Part shown: in pieces, positions 38,411-49,131 of the stretch | Layout: each line of letters begins with the position of its first letter | Position numbering within the stretch: the stretch's first letter is position 1 | Assembly: GCA_944326825.1 (NCBI GenBank) | Contig: CALVFL010000032.1 | Coordinates: 1-64,000 of the forward strand | Length of the DNA stretch: 64,000 bases | Direction of reading: 5' to 3' | From: an uncultured Erysipelotrichaceae bacterium | GTDB taxonomy: Bacteria > Bacillota_I > Bacilli_A > Erysipelotrichales > Erysipelotrichaceae | Notes under the pieces: generated by a model | Databases searched by the model: none | What the model was told of the DNA's origin: nothing | Seen by the model: the letters and a program-made list of their open reading frames with translations, nothing else | Made by a program: the position numbers and the translations under genes

Positions 38411-39769
38411 TCAACGTGCCACAGGATCTTTGTCAGTTATCTCCTTAAAGAAAGAAATAACTAACGGAATGCTGAAAGCTAAAGAAATAATATCGGCAAT
38501 GCTTTGAGATATTTCAAGCCCAAGGATGCCAAAGAGGTTAGATAAGATGATAACGGCAGGAATAAGGGCGATACCTTGTCTTAAAGCAGCCAAAAAAGAA
38601 GCTTCTTTCGTCTTGCCTACCACTTGCAGCATCATATTGGCTACCGTTACAAATACGGTCAAGAATAAAGTCAGACACTGAAAACGCAAAGTAGCAGAAC
38701 CGATATTCACAACATCGAGCGAAGCATCGCTTTGAAAAAGATGCAGTATATTATCGGCAAAGATAAAAGCCAAAAGCGAAATGATGATCGTAAAGATCGT
38801 ACCCGCTTTGATAGTATATTTAAAGGCTTCTTTTACTCTTTTATAACACTTGGCGCCATAGTTATAACCGCAGACCGGCTGGAAGCCTTGAGCGATACCG
38901 ATAACGACCGAGAAAGCAAACTGCATGATACGATTGACGACAGATACGGCAGCGATCGCCGCATCCCCAAAAGGCATGGCACAAAGATTGACACAGGCTG
39001 TCGATATGGAAGAGATGCCCTGACGGCATAATGACGGGAAGCCGCCTTTAAAGATATTGATAAGATGATACTTGTCTAAATGAATATCTTTAAAAGAATA
39101 AGTCAAAGAATCGCTTTTAATTATTCCCCAAAGCAACAATATAAAGGAGATGAATTGAGAAAGGATAGTAGCTATGGCAGCTCCGGCTATACCTAGATCA
39201 AAACCGAAAATAAACAAGGGATCTAAAACGATATTCAAGATACCACCGGCAGTAATGCCGATCATCGAGAAAAAAGAATTTCCCTGGAAACGTAATTGAT
39301 TGTTCATGACTAGCGAAGCCATCATGATCGGCGCTCCAAGCAGGATCCATGACATATAGGCAATACTGTAAGGAAGCATCGTTTCGCTGGAACCTAAAAG
39401 CCTGGCTAAAGGTTCAATGAAGATAAGACCAGTTACTCCTAAGATCGCTCCTAAGATAAAGGCTAACACAAAACCGGTCGTGGCCATCTTTTTAGCTTCC
39501 ATGATTTTATCAGCTCCAAGCATCCGGGATATAAAATTGCCTGAACCATGTCCGCAAAAGAAACCTCCGGCTTGGATCAAAGCCATGATCGCAAAGACGA
39601 TGCCGACAGCAGCCGTAGCAGAATCGTTGTTTAATTGAGCTACCCAATAGGTATCGGCCATATTGTATAAAGATGTTATGAGCATGCTGACGATCGTCGG
39701 TACAGCCAGTTTATTGATAAGTGACGGTATTGCGTCATGCAGCATTGAATCCCGTTTGGTATTTTCCAT
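38411..39769 (-). CDS. MATE-family multidrug/Na+ antiporter
   Basis: The 452-residue protein has twelve helices in two homologous halves, the NorM-type pattern (PSLINKLAVPTIVSMLITSL, VNRIMQFAFSVVIGIAQGFQ, PVCGYNYGAK). It exports cationic drugs or metabolites in exchange for Na+ or H+. The start has a good GGGGG site and the gene stands alone, convergent with the ATPase at 37079 with 12 bp between. Confidence 0.93.
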   Translation of the reverse strand: MENTKRDSMLHDAIPSLINKLAVPTIVSMLITSLYNMADTYWVAQLNNDSATAAVGIVFAIMALIQAGGFFCGHGSGNFISRMLGADKIMEAKKMATTGFVLAFILGAILGVTGLIFIEPLARLLGSSETMLPYSIAYMSWILLGAPIMMASLVMNNQLRFQGNSFFSMIGITAGGILNIVLDPLFIFGFDLGIAGAAIATILSQFISFILLLWGIIKSDSLTYSFKDIHLDKYHLINIFKGGFPSLCRQGISSISTACVNLCAMPFGDAAIAAVSVVNRIMQFAFSVVIGIAQGFQPVCGYNYGAKCYKRVKEAFKYTIKAGTIFTIIISLLAFIFADNILHLFQSDASLDVVNIGSATLRFQCLTLFLTVFVTVANMMLQVVGKTKEASFLAALRQGIALIPAVIILSNLFGILGLEISQSIADIISLAFSIPLVISFFKEITDKDPVAR

Positions 39770-39857: not shown

Positions 39858-39888
39858 AATTAAAAGCCACTTTTTAAAGTGACTTTTA
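39858..39888 (-). terminator. Terminator overlapping the stop of the ABC-2 permease
   Basis: On the minus strand TAAAAGTCACTTT folds on AAAGTGGCTTTTA (one G-U pair) and then T-rich sequence follows. The hairpin begins within the TAA of the gene ending at 39886. Confidence 0.75.
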
Positions 39889-40785
39889 GCTTATATCCAT
39901 ATTATCATATCTTAATATCGAAGCCAGCATACTGAAGACAGTTATTGCGAGATAGACCGTCATGATGATCAAAGGGCCGATCTGATCTTTGAATGCTGAT
40001 CCAAAGCTGTTTCCGATGATGAAATCGGGATCATTAAGAGAATAGGTAGTCATCATAAAGGTACTGAAGGTTCCAGAATAAGTACCGATAACGGTATTTA
40101 AAGGTTCTGCAAAAGTTTTGATAAGCGTGAATAGTTGTGAACTCAGATCAAAACAGTATAAGTGCAGATCATAATAAGTATTGCTGGCGATATTTTCAGC
40201 GACAGGGATAACTCCGGCCCCGATAAAAAGGATAAAGATCATGAGTATCGTAAATAATACATTGTTTTTGATAAAGATCGCCAACATGCTCATAAGAGCC
40301 AGAATCGTTAAGATCTCGATCACTCCGCCTAAAAATATCGCTATATTGATCGTATAGATATTGATCGCCACATCGATGTCAAGATTGCCGATCGCAATAT
40401 ATAAAGATGAAGCCATCAAAAGACAAAACAAGAGATTGCTGAGTGAGCCTAAAAAGTTGCCTAAGACTTTGGCAAGCAGGATCTCTTTGCGGGAAAGCGG
40501 TTTGATAAAAAGCAGTTTTACCGTTCCGCTTTTGATTTCATTTGTAAAGGTATCAGCCGTTTTGATGATCAAAGAGATATTGGCTATACCAAAGATAAAG
40601 ACATAAGCACACATCGTCAGATAATCGACATTATAACGTCCGACAGTTTCTTCAAAGGAAAAGATCGTATCTTTTCCATAAAGATGCAGCGATAATGCTA
40701 CCACAAAACCGATGCCAAAGCCCATAAAGATCAGGTTGGAGATCTTCCAAAAAGAGCGGAAATTTCTAGCTATGATCTGTTTCAT
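39886..40785 (-). CDS. ABC-2 permease partnered with the beta-propeller protein
   Basis: The 299-residue permease has six membrane helices. ADTFTNEIKSGTVKLLFIKP followed by LSRKEILLAKVLGNF is the conserved cytoplasmic loop of ABC-2 exporters. The ATG at 40785 has AAAGGGG 6-7 nt upstream and overlaps the ATPase gene by 20 nt; the frame extends 25 codons up without a site. With the ATPase it forms a two-component exporter whose substrate is not known; the first gene of the operon is the extracellular propeller. Confidence 0.85.
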   Translation of the reverse strand: MKQIIARNFRSFWKISNLIFMGFGIGFVVALSLHLYGKDTIFSFEETVGRYNVDYLTMCAYVFIFGIANISLIIKTADTFTNEIKSGTVKLLFIKPLSRKEILLAKVLGNFLGSLSNLLFCLLMASSLYIAIGNLDIDVAINIYTINIAIFLGGVIEILTILALMSMLAIFIKNNVLFTILMIFILFIGAGVIPVAENIASNTYYDLHLYCFDLSSQLFTLIKTFAEPLNTVIGTYSGTFSTFMMTTYSLNDPDFIIGNSFGSAFKDQIGPLIIMTVYLAITVFSMLASILRYDNMDIS

Positions 40786-41686
40786 GTCTTTCCCCTTTCG
40801 TGATCGATTCATAAAGATCGTTGAGCGACATATTTTCATCGTACAGTTCCTTAAAGTCAATATCGTTTTCTACGATATACTTTTTAATGCTGCTCTTTGC
40901 ATCATTATCGACCTTTACTCTATAAACACCATCATTTAAAGTGTAAATATAAGCTTTATGATCTAAAAAAGCCCTCAGTCTTTGATCTTTAGAGTTGATG
41001 ATCAGCGTGGCATTATCAGATGTTCTTTGTACTTCTTCCATCGAGGCATCAAGCACCAGTTTGCCGTTTTGAATTATCAGTACATTATCGATAAAGGTTT
41101 CAAGCTCACTTAGCACATGCGAGCTGATCAGGATCGTTTTATTATCGCTGGCTAATTCTTTGATGATCTCGATGATCTCTAAACGGCTGTCAGGATCAAG
41201 GTTGGCGGTCGGTTCATCCAGCAAGATCAGCTTAGGATGATGGATGATGGCGGCAGCCAGTCCGACTTTCTTTTTCATGCCGGTTGAAAATGAGCTGACT
41301 TTTTTATTCTCAAAGCTGCTTAAAGCCAAACGGTCGATCAGATAGAGAGCTTCTTTATAAGCTTCTTTATAACTCATGCCGCAAAGCGTACCCATATAGA
41401 TCAAAAAGTCTAAACAGCCCATATCGTTATAAAAGACCGGAAACTCGCTGCTGAAGCCAAGATATTTACGGATATTTTTATTTGATACATCTTCATTCAA
41501 GATTGTAATAGTGCCGCTTGTCGCTTTAAGAAGACCGGCGATCATATTGATCGTGGTGGATTTGCCTGCCCCGTTTGGGCCGATAAAACCATAGATCTTT
41601 CCTTCATCTAAACTAAAGGACATATAATCGACAGCTTTAAATCTCTTAAAAGACTTGCTTACATTCTCAAGTTTTAAAACACTCAT
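40766..41686 (-). CDS. ABC-2 exporter ATPase of the propeller operon
   Basis: The 306-residue protein has an ABC domain of about 220 residues (Walker A GPNGAGKST, signature FSTGMKKKV, Walker B LILLDEPTANLD, switch SSHV). An additional C-terminal domain of about 80 residues (TLIINSKDQRLRAF, then KKYIVENDIDFKELYDENMS) matches the CcmA-type ABC-2 ATPases with an accessory tail. ATGA overlap with the propeller gene couples their translation. Confidence 0.92.
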   Translation of the reverse strand: MSVLKLENVSKSFKRFKAVDYMSFSLDEGKIYGFIGPNGAGKSTTINMIAGLLKATSGTITILNEDVSNKNIRKYLGFSSEFPVFYNDMGCLDFLIYMGTLCGMSYKEAYKEALYLIDRLALSSFENKKVSSFSTGMKKKVGLAAAIIHHPKLILLDEPTANLDPDSRLEIIEIIKELASDNKTILISSHVLSELETFIDNVLIIQNGKLVLDASMEEVQRTSDNATLIINSKDQRLRAFLDHKAYIYTLNDGVYRVKVDNDAKSSIKKYIVENDIDFKELYDENMSLNDLYESITKGERHETDHS

Positions 41687-44600
41687 CTTTTCTTGCCCCC
41701 CTTATATCTATTAAGCAAAGGTTTGCTGATCATTCCTATAGAAAGGATCAAAAGGATGACTACGACAGCCATAGCGATATAAGTAACGGTATCGCTTTTG
41801 TTGATGCTTAGATGCAGATTTTGGATGATGCCGGTAGCGTCAATATCCTTAAAGACTATTTCCAGATCATGTTCTCCTTTAAGCATTTTTAAAGTTAGTT
41901 CATTATCGGTGGTCTTGGCGATGACACTGCCGTTTTCAATGATCTCTACTTCGATCAGCTCAGGTTTTTGAAAAGACAGCTTTAGCAAAGATCCTTCCTC
42001 TTTTGCTTCAGTTATCTTCAGATCATTTTCAGGCCTGTATAGATAAAGTTCATCATTATTATCTTTTATAAATAGCTGATCCATACTGCTAAAGACATCT
42101 TTAACAGCTATATCGAAGCTTACTTCTTTTAAAGAAGTATTGATGTTGTAGATATAGGCCCCGCCTTCCCCATAAAACAAGATCCTTTCTTCATCCAAGA
42201 CCTTTATTTCAGGAACAGAACGTATCGAAGAACTGACAGCATCTTTTTTAATGATCTCAAAAGTTGCGCCATCCACATAACATAAATAGGGATCTCTACT
42301 GTAAGGATCTCTTTCAAAATAGACGAGATCATCTTTGCCATCGTTATTCATATCATTGATCTTAACGATATAATTATTTTCATCAGCCGTTTCAAAAGGC
42401 ATGATATGATCAAAGGCGACAGGTTCATAACCATAGTAGTCGATATAGGAATCACTGGTTTCGCCATAGGAATAATAGTTATAGAAGTACAATAATGTAC
42501 CGTCTTTACCGCTGTATATCTCCCCTTCACCATCGCCGAAGCTGAAGATGATGTCATTTACGCCGTCATTGTTGTAATCGGTATCAGTAAAAGTATAGCG
42601 GCCATTGTTTATATCAAGCACGCCGTTTTCAGGAATGGCAAATAGTCTTTCAAGGTCTTTGCCTGAAAGGATCTCATAGACCTGGATATCTTTATCGTTA
42701 TAGCCGTTCACGACGATTTCGGCTATGCCGTCAGAATTGAGGTCTTTGACGATCGTGGCCGAAGTCTGATTTTCCAGTTTCTCGCTTTCAAATTCATAAA
42801 CGGTCCTGGTCTTTTGATAGCTGACATAGTCATAGCTGATCTTAGAAGTATAAAGAGTCGCGTTTTTATCATTCACATTGACTAGATCACTGATGCCGTC
42901 TTCATTGACATCGCCGATATAAAGAAGTTTGCCGTTATCTTTGATATAAGTATCGATGGTATATAAGATCTTCACTCTGACAGGATCAATAATCAAATTG
43001 TCAATGAGCAGCTCTTTATAGCCATCACCATTCAGGTCAGCAATGAAAGAGAGATCGTTAAAGGTGTAATAGAGGGTATGGCGTTTACCGTTTTCGTAAT
43101 AATAACTGTTTACAAGAGGTTCTTGACTTATAAAGGCATCTTCATCAAGATCAATGAGGATAATATCGCTGCGGTAAACACCGTCTTCATTTTTATGATC
43201 GACGATGCCGGCTAAGGTATTGCTTTCTTTATCATATTTCAATAATTTATAACCGGAAGTATTCTTGTATTCTTTGCCTAAAGTAAGCTTGGTATAGGTA
43301 AGATCGTCATTATATTCAGCGATGCCGTCAAGTCCGAATCTGACGATGAGTTTATCTTCATCGTGATATAAAAGTTTAGCCTGACTGTAATCAAAAAGCA
43401 CAGCGATCTCATCTAAACTTTCATCAACAGTATATAGACCTTCATTTATGATCGTAACCAAGATCTCATCGTTTAGATAATTCAGATCTATTTTGGTATT
43501 AGAACCATTATAGGCCAGATCAAAAGTAACCTGTTTTATAATGGAAAGATCATCTTTAGAAAAAACTCCTAAAGTCAAAGTGTTTTCTTTAGTACTTAAT
43601 GGAGCGATGATCGTCTGATCATCTTCTTGATATAAGGTATTGCCGCTTAAGACATTGCCGTTTGCACTTGTCAAAGCAGTGATTTCTAAAGATACTGGAT
43701 CTAATAAAGCCAACCCTTTAGAATTGGGTGCTTCATGAGCGGCAATACAGTGTTCATCGCCAAAGTTGCCTAAGACAAGGATCTTGTCGCCAAGATCTTC
43801 CAGTTTGTAATTCTTGAAATAAGAAAACTGAAGATTGTTTAAAGCGATCTTTTCGCCAGAATAGAGATAATAATTGAGATCGGCATAAGTTCTCAAGAGT
43901 TCATCAGGATCATATAATCCGACTTCAATGTCTTTGATCTTGACGCCATCATCCCCAAAAACGCTGATCAGATCGTTTTCAAGGGCAACAAATAATCGGC
44001 CGTCTTTATATAAAAGATCAAAAGCGCTCCATTTAAAAGGATATGTTTGATATTCAAGATCGATGATATCTTCAGATGTCAAGTCAAGATCATGCTGGAG
44101 CTCGCCGTTATTATCAAGATAATAAAGATGACCGTCTTGAGAGATAAGTGCTATTTGATCATTGTCTAAAAAAGCGATGTCCCAAAGATTGTCATTAGCT
44201 TCAAAAGAGAAGATCTCGCTGGCATCCATATCGAAAACGACAAGTTTATGATCGGCTAAAACATATAGTCTATCATCTTCATAAGTCAGCTGATAGATAT
44301 AGGCATTGGAATAGGTTTCGATCGTTCCCTGGTATGAAGTTCTTTTAAGAGCCGCCGACTTTATGATCTCACCGTTTTTTCCATCAAGATAAGCGATATT
44401 GTCATAAGAGTCAAAAGTATCAAAAACAACAGCAATATCTTTAATACCATCGCCACTTAGATCATCGATGACTTCAAAATCATAGACAGGAAAAGAAGTA
44501 GTGATCTTATGATCAGTACCCAAAAGGACTAAACCTTCATCATGAGCGACCATGACGCCTTTAAGATCATCAGCAAGCTCGACTTCTTTAGAAACGGTCT

Positions 44601-44703
44601 TTGGCAAATAGCGATCACCGTCAAAAAGATCTTCTAAAGAATCAGCTTCGATACTCGTGATGGCTAAAGTCATAAACACGATCAGAAATATTATCTTTTT
44701 CAT
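41683..44703 (-). CDS. Secreted, membrane-anchored FG-GAP/VCBS beta-propeller protein
   Basis: The 1006-residue protein opens with a signal peptide (MKKIIFLIVFMTLAITSIEA). A long extracellular region of repeated beta-strands follows, and the C-terminus carries a membrane helix (TYIAMAVVVILLILSIGM, about 974-992) with a basic tail (RYKGGKKR). Calcium-loop motifs recur: DLSGDGIKD near 79, DLNGDGYKE near 554, DVNEDGISD near 594, DLNSDGIAE near 652, DYNNDGVND near 709, DMNNDGKDD near 782. This matches FG-GAP/VCBS/integrin-alpha beta-propellers, probably two (one PQQ/WD-like N-terminal, one FG-GAP C-terminal). A short Ig-like domain comes before the anchor. Translation is coupled to an ABC-2 ATPase. 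A binding or sensing role at the exporter is inference. AAGGAG lies upstream. Confidence 0.82.
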   Translation of the reverse strand: MKKIIFLIVFMTLAITSIEADSLEDLFDGDRYLPKTVSKEVELADDLKGVMVAHDEGLVLLGTDHKITTSFPVYDFEVIDDLSGDGIKDIAVVFDTFDSYDNIAYLDGKNGEIIKSAALKRTSYQGTIETYSNAYIYQLTYEDDRLYVLADHKLVVFDMDASEIFSFEANDNLWDIAFLDNDQIALISQDGHLYYLDNNGELQHDLDLTSEDIIDLEYQTYPFKWSAFDLLYKDGRLFVALENDLISVFGDDGVKIKDIEVGLYDPDELLRTYADLNYYLYSGEKIALNNLQFSYFKNYKLEDLGDKILVLGNFGDEHCIAAHEAPNSKGLALLDPVSLEITALTSANGNVLSGNTLYQEDDQTIIAPLSTKENTLTLGVFSKDDLSIIKQVTFDLAYNGSNTKIDLNYLNDEILVTIINEGLYTVDESLDEIAVLFDYSQAKLLYHDEDKLIVRFGLDGIAEYNDDLTYTKLTLGKEYKNTSGYKLLKYDKESNTLAGIVDHKNEDGVYRSDIILIDLDEDAFISQEPLVNSYYYENGKRHTLYYTFNDLSFIADLNGDGYKELLIDNLIIDPVRVKILYTIDTYIKDNGKLLYIGDVNEDGISDLVNVNDKNATLYTSKISYDYVSYQKTRTVYEFESEKLENQTSATIVKDLNSDGIAEIVVNGYNDKDIQVYEILSGKDLERLFAIPENGVLDINNGRYTFTDTDYNNDGVNDIIFSFGDGEGEIYSGKDGTLLYFYNYYSYGETSDSYIDYYGYEPVAFDHIMPFETADENNYIVKINDMNNDGKDDLVYFERDPYSRDPYLCYVDGATFEIIKKDAVSSSIRSVPEIKVLDEERILFYGEGGAYIYNINTSLKEVSFDIAVKDVFSSMDQLFIKDNNDELYLYRPENDLKITEAKEEGSLLKLSFQKPELIEVEIIENGSVIAKTTDNELTLKMLKGEHDLEIVFKDIDATGIIQNLHLSINKSDTVTYIAMAVVVILLILSIGMISKPLLNRYKGGKKR

Positions 44704-44835
44704 AATCCTTTTCTCCTTGTAAGGTCATTATAGCATATTACCGCCTTGAAATAATGAAAGTTCAGAAATATGTAAGGAATATATCATAGCCTTGTCATAA
44801 AGTGATTTGAGGTAGTTAAAATAAAGTATAAGTGT

Positions 44836-45348: not shown

Positions 45349-45380
45349 AGAAGATTTAATTCTCTTTATAGACTCTTTTT
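45333..45380. terminator. Bidirectional terminator covering both convergent stop codons
   Basis: AAAAAAGAGTC (45333-45343) pairs with GACTCTTTTT (45371-45380), and an inner AGAGAA/TTCTCT pair extends it. The stop codons of the genes ending at 45348 and 45356 both lie inside the hairpin. Confidence 0.8.
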
Positions 45381-46906
45381 GATTCATTGATGATCTTTTG
45401 AATATTTTTACGCAGGATAGTGCTGGAAGAACCGAATTCCAAGACTAATTCATCACGGGTTTCCCTGACTCGCCAGGCCCCGACCTGTTTTAGTTTTTCA
45501 TAGGATACATCTTCTAAACTTTCGATCCGTATTTCTAGGTTGTGCGGCGTACTGTTTAAAGTAGTGATGTTGCCGATACCGCCGACAGCGTCGATGACTT
45601 TGCGGGCGATCGTCTTAGAACGGTTGGAACTGACGATATCATAGGCAGCAAACTCAAAATAACCTCGTGTAAGCAAGAAGTAGATAATAGCGTAGATAAG
45701 TCCGATGACAACGATGACTAAAAGCGAGTGGATGTATTGGGGAGTCCGGGCATTGATGATGAAGTCCGGGAAAGCTCCAGGCATCGCACTGACGGTAGAA
45801 CCGGAATAGCTGAAGCCTAAAAAGGCATTGTTGGCAAATAAGATGCCAAAGAGCGAACCGCTCAGCAACAAGTGAATGATCAATAAAAGAGGGGCATTGA
45901 ATAAAAGAAGCAGCTCCATCGGCAAAGGATTGCCGCAGATAAATGACAAGATCATGGCTCCGGCCGTATAAAGGATCATCTTATGTCTTTCTTTGCGGTC
46001 GCTGTAACTGAAATAGTAAGCTAGATAGACCGAAGGACATACAAACATATTGATGACATAATAAGGCGTGATGAAACGTCCGGCACCACTAAACGAAGCC
46101 AGGGCACCAGGCATCTCTTTCCAGATATTGACATCGCCAAGGATCGTCTGACCGGCCAGTGATGAATAGGTGCCGCCTTCAATGCCATACCAGAAAGGAT
46201 AGCGCACGATGTTGCCAAGACCTAAAACAGAGGTCACTCTGTCTAAAATACCGTAAGCACTTAAATGTAAGGGATCAGAAATATCGCTGGCGATCCAGGC
46301 GATCAGATCTAAGATCATATCCACAACATACGGCCAGACATAAGCCATAGCCACACCAGCCAAAGCACAAAGGATGATGTTGTAGATAAGACCGGCAGTA
46401 TCTTTGTGAGTAAAACCAAGCAGACTATAGATGCTGCGGTGTCTTGATTTGATATAGCTGTATCTTGTGATCATGGCGACGATGAATGATCCCACCATGC
46501 CGGTCTGCATTGGATAGAGAACACTTGAGCCGGATTGGCTTTGCATAGCATAGGAAATACCCAGATTATTGGTATAGACCTGTGCAGAATAATCATTCGG
46601 CCCCAATAACATCAATACCACAAGATATGTGATATAACCCGCTATCGCAAAAAGGGCCGGAGCACCGCTGTTGGCTCTTTTAGCCACGATCCCGATCATA
46701 AAGATCAGCGGCATGTTCATGATGATGACATGACCTATCTGCGAAGATATTCTGGCAATGATCAGGATGACCGGATTAGTTATCGTATAGAAAGTATTGA
46801 CATTATCGTTAGTTATTAAATAACCTATTGCCAATAAGACCCAGCCGAAAACGACGATCCTGATCGGCAATTTAGTGTTTTCATAAAGTATATTCCATCT
46901 TTTCAT
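45356..46906 (-). CDS. PTS IIC-like permease with IIB-like tail lacking the phosphocysteine
   Basis: The 516-residue protein has a glucose-family IIC-like domain of about ten helices (about residues 15-420) with PLPMELLLLFNAPLLLIIHL in place of the usual TEPIEF loop. A C-terminal IIB-like fold (about 430-515) follows: ARKVIDAVGGIGNITTLNS, then LEIRIESLEDVSYEKLKQVG. In true IIB the NI-block leads into CaTRLR, whose Cys is phosphorylated. Here the text is NSTPHNLEIRI, with no Cys. The IIC His motif (GLHH) also seems lost. The protein may be a non-PTS transporter or sensor. A TAGAAT box ends 6 nt before its ATG. Confidence 0.8.
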   Translation of the reverse strand: MKRWNILYENTKLPIRIVVFGWVLLAIGYLITNDNVNTFYTITNPVILIIARISSQIGHVIIMNMPLIFMIGIVAKRANSGAPALFAIAGYITYLVVLMLLGPNDYSAQVYTNNLGISYAMQSQSGSSVLYPMQTGMVGSFIVAMITRYSYIKSRHRSIYSLLGFTHKDTAGLIYNIILCALAGVAMAYVWPYVVDMILDLIAWIASDISDPLHLSAYGILDRVTSVLGLGNIVRYPFWYGIEGGTYSSLAGQTILGDVNIWKEMPGALASFSGAGRFITPYYVINMFVCPSVYLAYYFSYSDRKERHKMILYTAGAMILSFICGNPLPMELLLLFNAPLLLIIHLLLSGSLFGILFANNAFLGFSYSGSTVSAMPGAFPDFIINARTPQYIHSLLVIVVIGLIYAIIYFLLTRGYFEFAAYDIVSSNRSKTIARKVIDAVGGIGNITTLNSTPHNLEIRIESLEDVSYEKLKQVGAWRVRETRDELVLEFGSSSTILRKNIQKIINESKRVYKEN

Positions 46907-48634: not shown

Positions 48635-48883
48635 ATGCTTAATATTAACGTTACTAATTTCAGAAAAAATATTTTTGGCATATTGGAGCAGACAATTAAA
48701 TTTAATGAACCTGTAAATATTACCACCAAGGAAGGGAACGCCGTAATTTTAAGTGAAGAGGAATATAACAGTATGATGGAAACTTTATATTTATATTCTA
48801 TGCCTGCGACAAAAGAAAAAATAGTAGAAGGATTGAATACATCTATTGATGATTGCGTTCCTGAATCTGAGGTAGAGTGGTAG
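48635..48883 (+). CDS. YefM-family antitoxin
   Basis: The 82-residue protein begins MLNINVTNFRKNIFGILEQT with the Phd/YefM DNA-binding domain. EPVNITTKEGNAVILSEEEY follows, then a C-terminal helix (TKEKIVEGLNTSIDDCVPES) that wraps the toxin. AAGGAG lies 8 nt upstream. It neutralises the following toxin and represses the promoter at 48594. Confidence 0.93.
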   Translation: MLNINVTNFRKNIFGILEQTIKFNEPVNITTKEGNAVILSEEEYNSMMETLYLYSMPATKEKIVEGLNTSIDDCVPESEVEW

Positions 48884-49131
48884 TGTATAAAATCGTCTAT
48901 ACAAAAAAGGCAGTAAAAGACATTGCAAAATTAGATGAAAAGGCAAGGTCGCTTATAGAACTTGTCAGAAAAGACCCGTTCCAAACTCCGCCACCGTATG
49001 AAAAACTGCTGGGAGATTTAAGCGGGGCATACTCAAGAAGGATCAATGTTAAACATAGATTTGTGTATGAGGTTTTAGAAAAAGATAAGATCATAAAAAT
49101 ATTGAGCATGTGGACACATTACGATTTTTAA
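48883..49131 (+). CDS. YoeB/Txe-family mRNA interferase toxin
   Basis: The 82-residue protein has the RelE-like fold of YoeB: YKIVYTKKAVKDIAKLDE, PPPYEKLLGDLSGAYSRRIN with the catalytic Glu and Arg region, then HRFVYEVLEKDKI. The ending SMWTHYDF carries the catalytic His-Tyr. It cuts mRNA in the ribosomal A site. The GTG at 48883 is chosen; it shares one base with the antitoxin stop (TAGTG), and GAGGT lies 9 nt upstream. A GTG at 48877 is the alternative. Confidence 0.93.
   Translation: MYKIVYTKKAVKDIAKLDEKARSLIELVRKDPFQTPPPYEKLLGDLSGAYSRRINVKHRFVYEVLEKDKIIKILSMWTHYDF

Follow-up and report, generated by a model that had tools for sequence, protein, structure and literature searches.

NosD, a protein with a beta-helix fold, belongs to the described system whose layout comes closest to that of the locus considered here. 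NosFY and NosD are required for assembly of CuZ in nitrous oxide reductase (PMC7558416), and ABC-2-like exporters with large outer domains have been described in Bacillus subtilis (PMC11466899). The literature searched, which covered few subscription papers, held nothing relevant on an operon that joins a beta-propeller protein to an ABC-2 pair; WalA of Clostridioides difficile, a beta-propeller lipoprotein (PMC9210968), was set aside as a member of a two-component operon without an ABC pair. The preliminary description of this locus stated that its author knew no characterised system of such a makeup, and this was too strong, as NosDFY shares the layout and NosY is the one solved protein to which the permease is related by sequence. 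The layout is thus already known from NosDFY; a propeller as the partner is new and is undescribed in the literature searched.

The locus lies on the minus strand of the window, by which we mean the whole stretch of 64,000 nucleotides that was analysed (contig 32 of a 1.38 Mb assembly, 83% complete). Its features are as follows.

41683..44703, minus strand: propeller gene, 1006 amino acids; signal peptide, probable N-terminal PQQ/WD-like propeller, probable C-terminal FG-GAP propeller with calcium loops, Ig-like domain, one C-terminal transmembrane (TM) helix, short basic tail
40766..41686, minus strand: ABC-2 type ATPase gene, 306 amino acids with a C-terminal extension; Walker A GPNGAGKST, signature STGMKKK, Walker B LILLDEPT and H-loop SSH all intact
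39886..40785, minus strand: ABC-2 permease gene, 299 amino acids; six TM helices, NosY-like core, enlarged extracellular TM5-TM6 loop, D252-x-D254
44713..44718, minus strand: Shine-Dalgarno AAGGAG of the propeller gene, read directly, a few bases 5' of the ATG
44727..44732, minus strand: candidate extended -10, TGcTATAAT, picked by eye; weak, with no convincing -35 and absent from a consensus scan
39861..39888, minus strand: intrinsic-terminator-like hairpin, 12-bp stem and T-rich tail, at the end of the three-gene unit

The three reading frames agree in position with those given in the preliminary description, and the coupling it reported can be read in the sequence: ATGA holds both the propeller stop and the ATPase start, the latter preceded by a G-rich stretch, and a permease start at the ATG at 40785, which follows AAGGGG, gives an overlap of 20 nt between the ATPase and permease genes. 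This is the likely start; the TTG at 40860 that the ORF finder listed probably reflects mechanical extension of the frame. As the hairpin ends the three-gene unit, the MATE-type transporter gene downstream (38411-39769, minus strand) is probably separate. MATE-type genes also follow the unit in two other genomes of the family (L021:12148-13512 and L078:10616-11980), with weak similarity (21%). Elsewhere in the window, 45356-46906 (minus strand) encodes a 516-residue membrane protein without a Pfam match, which by eye resembles a PTS EIIC permease whose C-terminal EIIB-like domain lacks the usual phosphorylated cysteine, and a small overlapping gene pair at 48635-49131 (plus strand) looks by eye like a YefM/YoeB-type antitoxin-toxin module.

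The propeller protein begins with a hydrophobic signal (residues 4-22) and ends in one TM helix (974-992) and a basic tail, and so is, as first described, a 1006-residue secreted protein with a C-terminal anchor. It matches Pfam FG-GAP_3 at 37.7 bits against a cutoff of 26.9; FG-GAP/PQQ-like propeller families matched all 12 relatives scanned, FG-GAP_3 being found in every one, and no beta-helix family was matched in these 12. The claim of at least six DxDxDG loops stands in a relaxed form: six loops fit D-x-[DNS]-x-DG (residues 81, 556, 598, 654, 709 and 784), but just five of them satisfy the stricter pattern D-x-[DN]-x-DG. Shuffled sequences gave a mean of 0.41 loops and a maximum of 4 (n=2000). 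Across 22 diverse members the Asp positions of the calcium-type loops are mostly conserved, and the N-terminal half, which is PQQ/WD-like, has invariant positions at N172, W174, Q189 and E242. In the C-terminal propeller some 190 residues, calcium loops included, match integrin alpha-V (E=2.6e-10), and alignment and model together place a small Ig-like domain ahead of the TM helix, at residues 900-967 or so. The earlier proposal of two propellers fits the PQQ/WD-like N-terminal half and the FG-GAP C-terminal half and is likely to be right, with the number of blades left unsettled by an AlphaFold model that was built from four sequences and is confident only at residues ~41-260. A Foldseek search with this model returned TM-scores near 0.2, with BT4663 among the top matches; these were dropped as proof of kinship, and propellers all match each other.

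The search for propeller relatives took in whole genomes at the level of family, order, class and phylum. Once spurious partial matches had been removed, it gave 38 full-length genes in 32 genomes from four families, all in the class Bacilli; none was seen outside this class in 392 phylum genomes. A scan of genome contigs with the single sequence gave no propeller relatives, while a profile scan gave three true loci, the remainder being generic FG-GAP proteins of other phyla that were rejected as domain-level matches. Also rejected were a match in G149 (E=6.6e-4), which overlaps an unrelated 571-residue ORF that by eye resembles a PTS enzyme I, and weak partial domain matches in G041, G367, G428, G446, G660, G663 and G759. 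Two of the 38 loci (G188 and G439) could not be read, as the contig ends before the next gene. In all 36 others, one of them split over two contigs (G145), one with a broken reading frame (G187) and one with the ATPase cut by a contig end (G755), the propeller, ATPase and permease genes lie together in one cluster and point the same way, nearly always with overlaps; propeller homologues lying mostly apart from ABC-2 genes, which would have spoken against the coupling first described, were therefore not what the genomes held. The ATPase gene comes directly after the propeller gene in 33 of the 36 and the permease gene does so in three, all within one expanded cluster (G643), where the gap from propeller to ATPase is 13 nt; in each of the 28 triads with a measured junction, propeller stop and ATPase start overlap or adjoin. 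In the broken locus (L075; G187:C203) the propeller gene is spread over three frames with ATPase and permease intact downstream, through recent decay or an assembly error. Within the genus of the window, two of nine sampled genomes carry the unit (G000 and G145, but not G045, G085, G110, G131, G224, G227 or G284), and their ATPases are only ~45% identical, as for a unit that is patchy and old in the genus.

Gene order is kept over four families at propeller identities of about 20%, and all other neighbours change: by eye, the flanking genes include dusB in some members of the window's family, V-type ATP synthase genes in the majority of a second family and ligA or other genes in a third. Since the flanks vary by lineage, the three-gene unit is self-contained; no neighbour outside it is conserved, so there is no pointer to the substrate. 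The reciprocal comparison agrees. Full-length homologues found with a permease profile (E<=1e-54) are confined to propeller-bearing genomes (9 of 142 in the family set and 9 of 218 in the class set), and the best other matches are partial, at 38 bits in the family set and 52 bits, to a frame with three stops, in the class set. In the f19 genomes with an intact locus the copy numbers of permease and propeller are equal (5/5, 2/2, 2/2, 1/1, 1/1 and 1/1). The gene trees of propeller, ATPase and permease agree in the main, as expected of a unit inherited together. In a mirror-tree analysis the correlation of propeller and permease distances vanished once the ATPase was controlled for (partial r=0.02), leaving no pair-specific signal of co-evolution, and this correlation is thus not independent proof of contact.

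The permease matches Pfam ABC2_membrane_2 (30.2 bits, cutoff 27.2) and has six hydrophobic segments; no FtsX family was among its Pfam matches. NosY is its only solved relative by sequence (E=1e-4), the match covering the membrane core and not the loop. By simple hydropathy the predicted extracellular TM5-TM6 segment spans 72-90 residues in propeller-linked permeases, and about 24-36 residues in other ABC-2 permeases of the same family with six helices detected. A D-x-D motif before TM6 (D252 and D254) occurs in all 20 distinct propeller-linked permeases, including those at 15-28% identity, and in one of 26 control ABC-2 permeases. We infer that this segment is a natural docking candidate for the propeller; a permease model predicted from too few sequences (pLDDT 44) was unusable. 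The ATPase matches Pfam ABC_tran at 102 bits, and its Walker A, Walker B, signature and H-loop are conserved in 10 of 10 sequences. Its best relatives are nucleotide-binding domains of ABCA lipid transporters, followed by NosF (E=2.9e-43), with PmtC among others. A PADLOC search for anti-phage defence genes returned no match for propeller or permease and only generic hits for the ATPase.

The expanded cluster (G643:C3, ~209000-228200, loci L111 and L147) has four propellers and four permeases, paired 1:1, with one ATPase, in the order p4-m4-p3-m3-p2-m2-p1-ATPase-m1 on one strand, between genes read as murD and ftsW. Propellers p2 and p4 are 46% identical and p1 and p3 36%, and the permeases pair likewise (m2/m4 52%, m1/m3 50%), so that the cluster seems to have grown by duplication of a two-pair block. 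This arrangement suggests that the permeases form heterodimers, every permease with a propeller to itself, and that one ATPase serves them all. Two of the cluster propellers start in a lipoprotein-like manner (SSC and SGC motifs). A fifth triad in the same genome, of the ordinary kind, follows ligA. Stoichiometric assembly, which the preliminary description had read from the gene overlaps, gains indirect support from the 1:1 pairing kept in this tandem locus. Propeller, ATPase and permease are an obligate, co-inherited three-gene unit. That they also act as one assembled unit, as first suggested, is well supported by clustering at every readable locus, absence of the full-length permease without the propeller in the sampled genomes, matching trees and the pairing in the tandem cluster.

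We propose that the products of the three genes work together as a single dedicated machine of the cell envelope. A pair of ATPases would drive a permease dimer, the anchored double propeller would sit outside on the long TM5-TM6 loops, probably with one propeller per permease, and, as in NosDFY, ATP hydrolysis would move a substrate outwards and hand it over to the propeller, which would hold or present it there. As a whole, a NosDFY-like machine that exports to its propeller is the account we lean towards, by a small measure. Its parts differ in strength: it is very probable that propeller, permease and ATPase form a physical complex, and reasonably probable that the propeller docks at the TM5-TM6 loop of the permease, and export to a propeller that acts as receiver, not as sensor or lever, is a tentative reading that we place just short of an even call. 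By analogy, the ABC core may move or energise something that the propeller accepts or holds on the outside. We suggest, still more tentatively, a class of ABC machine in the Bacilli with two propellers, two permeases and two ATPases, in which a calcium-dependent double propeller would be anchored per permease and docked through the TM5-TM6 D-x-D, and in which some lineages may build heteromers of several pairs that share one ATPase.

Another explanation for the data is that the propeller binds an extracellular ligand, such as an antimicrobial peptide, a glycan or a metal ion, and thereby activates a transporter that clears the compound out of the membrane, after the manner of lantibiotic-immunity or Bce-like modules. 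Lantibiotic-protection and PSM-export families are among the best NCBIfam matches of the ATPase, although these are generic resemblances that fall short of the curated cutoffs; a double propeller with an Ig-like domain and a TM helix resembles ectodomains such as BT4663, but the low fold scores given above apply here too; and the patchy distribution in the genus is what accessory resistance genes would show. Neither a regulator nor a two-component system is conserved beside the propeller loci, and we regard this form of sensing and self-protection as unlikely, though it is the foremost of the rivals.

Less likely again is a mechanical role, in which ATP-driven shape changes of the permease would tug at or turn the propeller and so make it act on the cell wall or another surface protein, in an FtsEX-like or gliding-like manner and with no substrate crossing the membrane. 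The very large anchored outer part would suit such a role, as would the placing of the expanded cluster between murD and ftsW, within a division and cell-wall gene cluster, but this placing occurs in one genome only; the NCBIfam matches are headed by GldA and GldF, at scores far below cutoff, and the permease is of ABC-2 and not of FtsX or MacB type. It might finally be argued that three unrelated genes merely share an operon, as small genomes are tightly packed and overlapping starts are common in them. The order kept at such low propeller identity with changing neighbours, and the want of a full-length permease in genomes that have no propeller, make chance or purely transcriptional neighbourhood very improbable.

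The NosDFY-like machine that we favour would be a three-part envelope system, undescribed in the literature searched, for which a parts list, a reciprocal pattern of presence and absence and concrete residues are at hand. Were the propeller to dock on the permease, the pairing of an ABC-2 transporter with an extracytoplasmic partner of its own, as known from NosDFY, would reach to the Bacilli with a quite different outer protein. The loci with differing numbers of pairs are natural variants from which stoichiometry could be worked out.

Set beside other systems that unite some of these parts, the locus shares most with NosDFY. Both have an extracytoplasmic partner, an ABC-2 ATPase and one permease in a single operon. 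The permease here may be of the NosY type, and NosY and NosF are both found by sequence, although ABCA domains score better for the ATPase. The partner here is instead a calcium-loop double beta-propeller with its own TM helix, in place of the beta-helix of NosD; propeller and permease genes are paired 1:1, the match to NosY leaves out the TM5-TM6 loop, and neither nosZ nor nosL was noticed adjoining the three-gene unit. The ABCA-type and other type V (ABC-2) exporters, such as ABCA1/ABCA3, PmtCD and the LnrLMN/NatAB hybrids, are alike in the ATPase, whose C-terminally extended form is nearest to ABCA domains and also matches PmtC, but they carry the outer domain within the permease, whereas here it is a separate anchored protein of 1000 residues. 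From the type VII mechanotransducers (MacB, FtsEX and BceAB) the locus differs in a permease without an FtsX-like domain in Pfam. The FG-GAP propeller of integrin alpha chains is matched by the C-terminal propeller with its calcium loops, a kinship at the level of the fold only; the protein here is bacterial, has two propellers and is coupled to an ABC transporter. BT4663 consists of two propellers, a beta-sandwich and one TM helix, and hybrid two-component sensors of this type, which were among the top Foldseek matches, are thus similar in plan, to the extent that the quality of the model allows comparison; the protein described here has no kinase, and Pfam recognised no Y_Y_Y domain in it.
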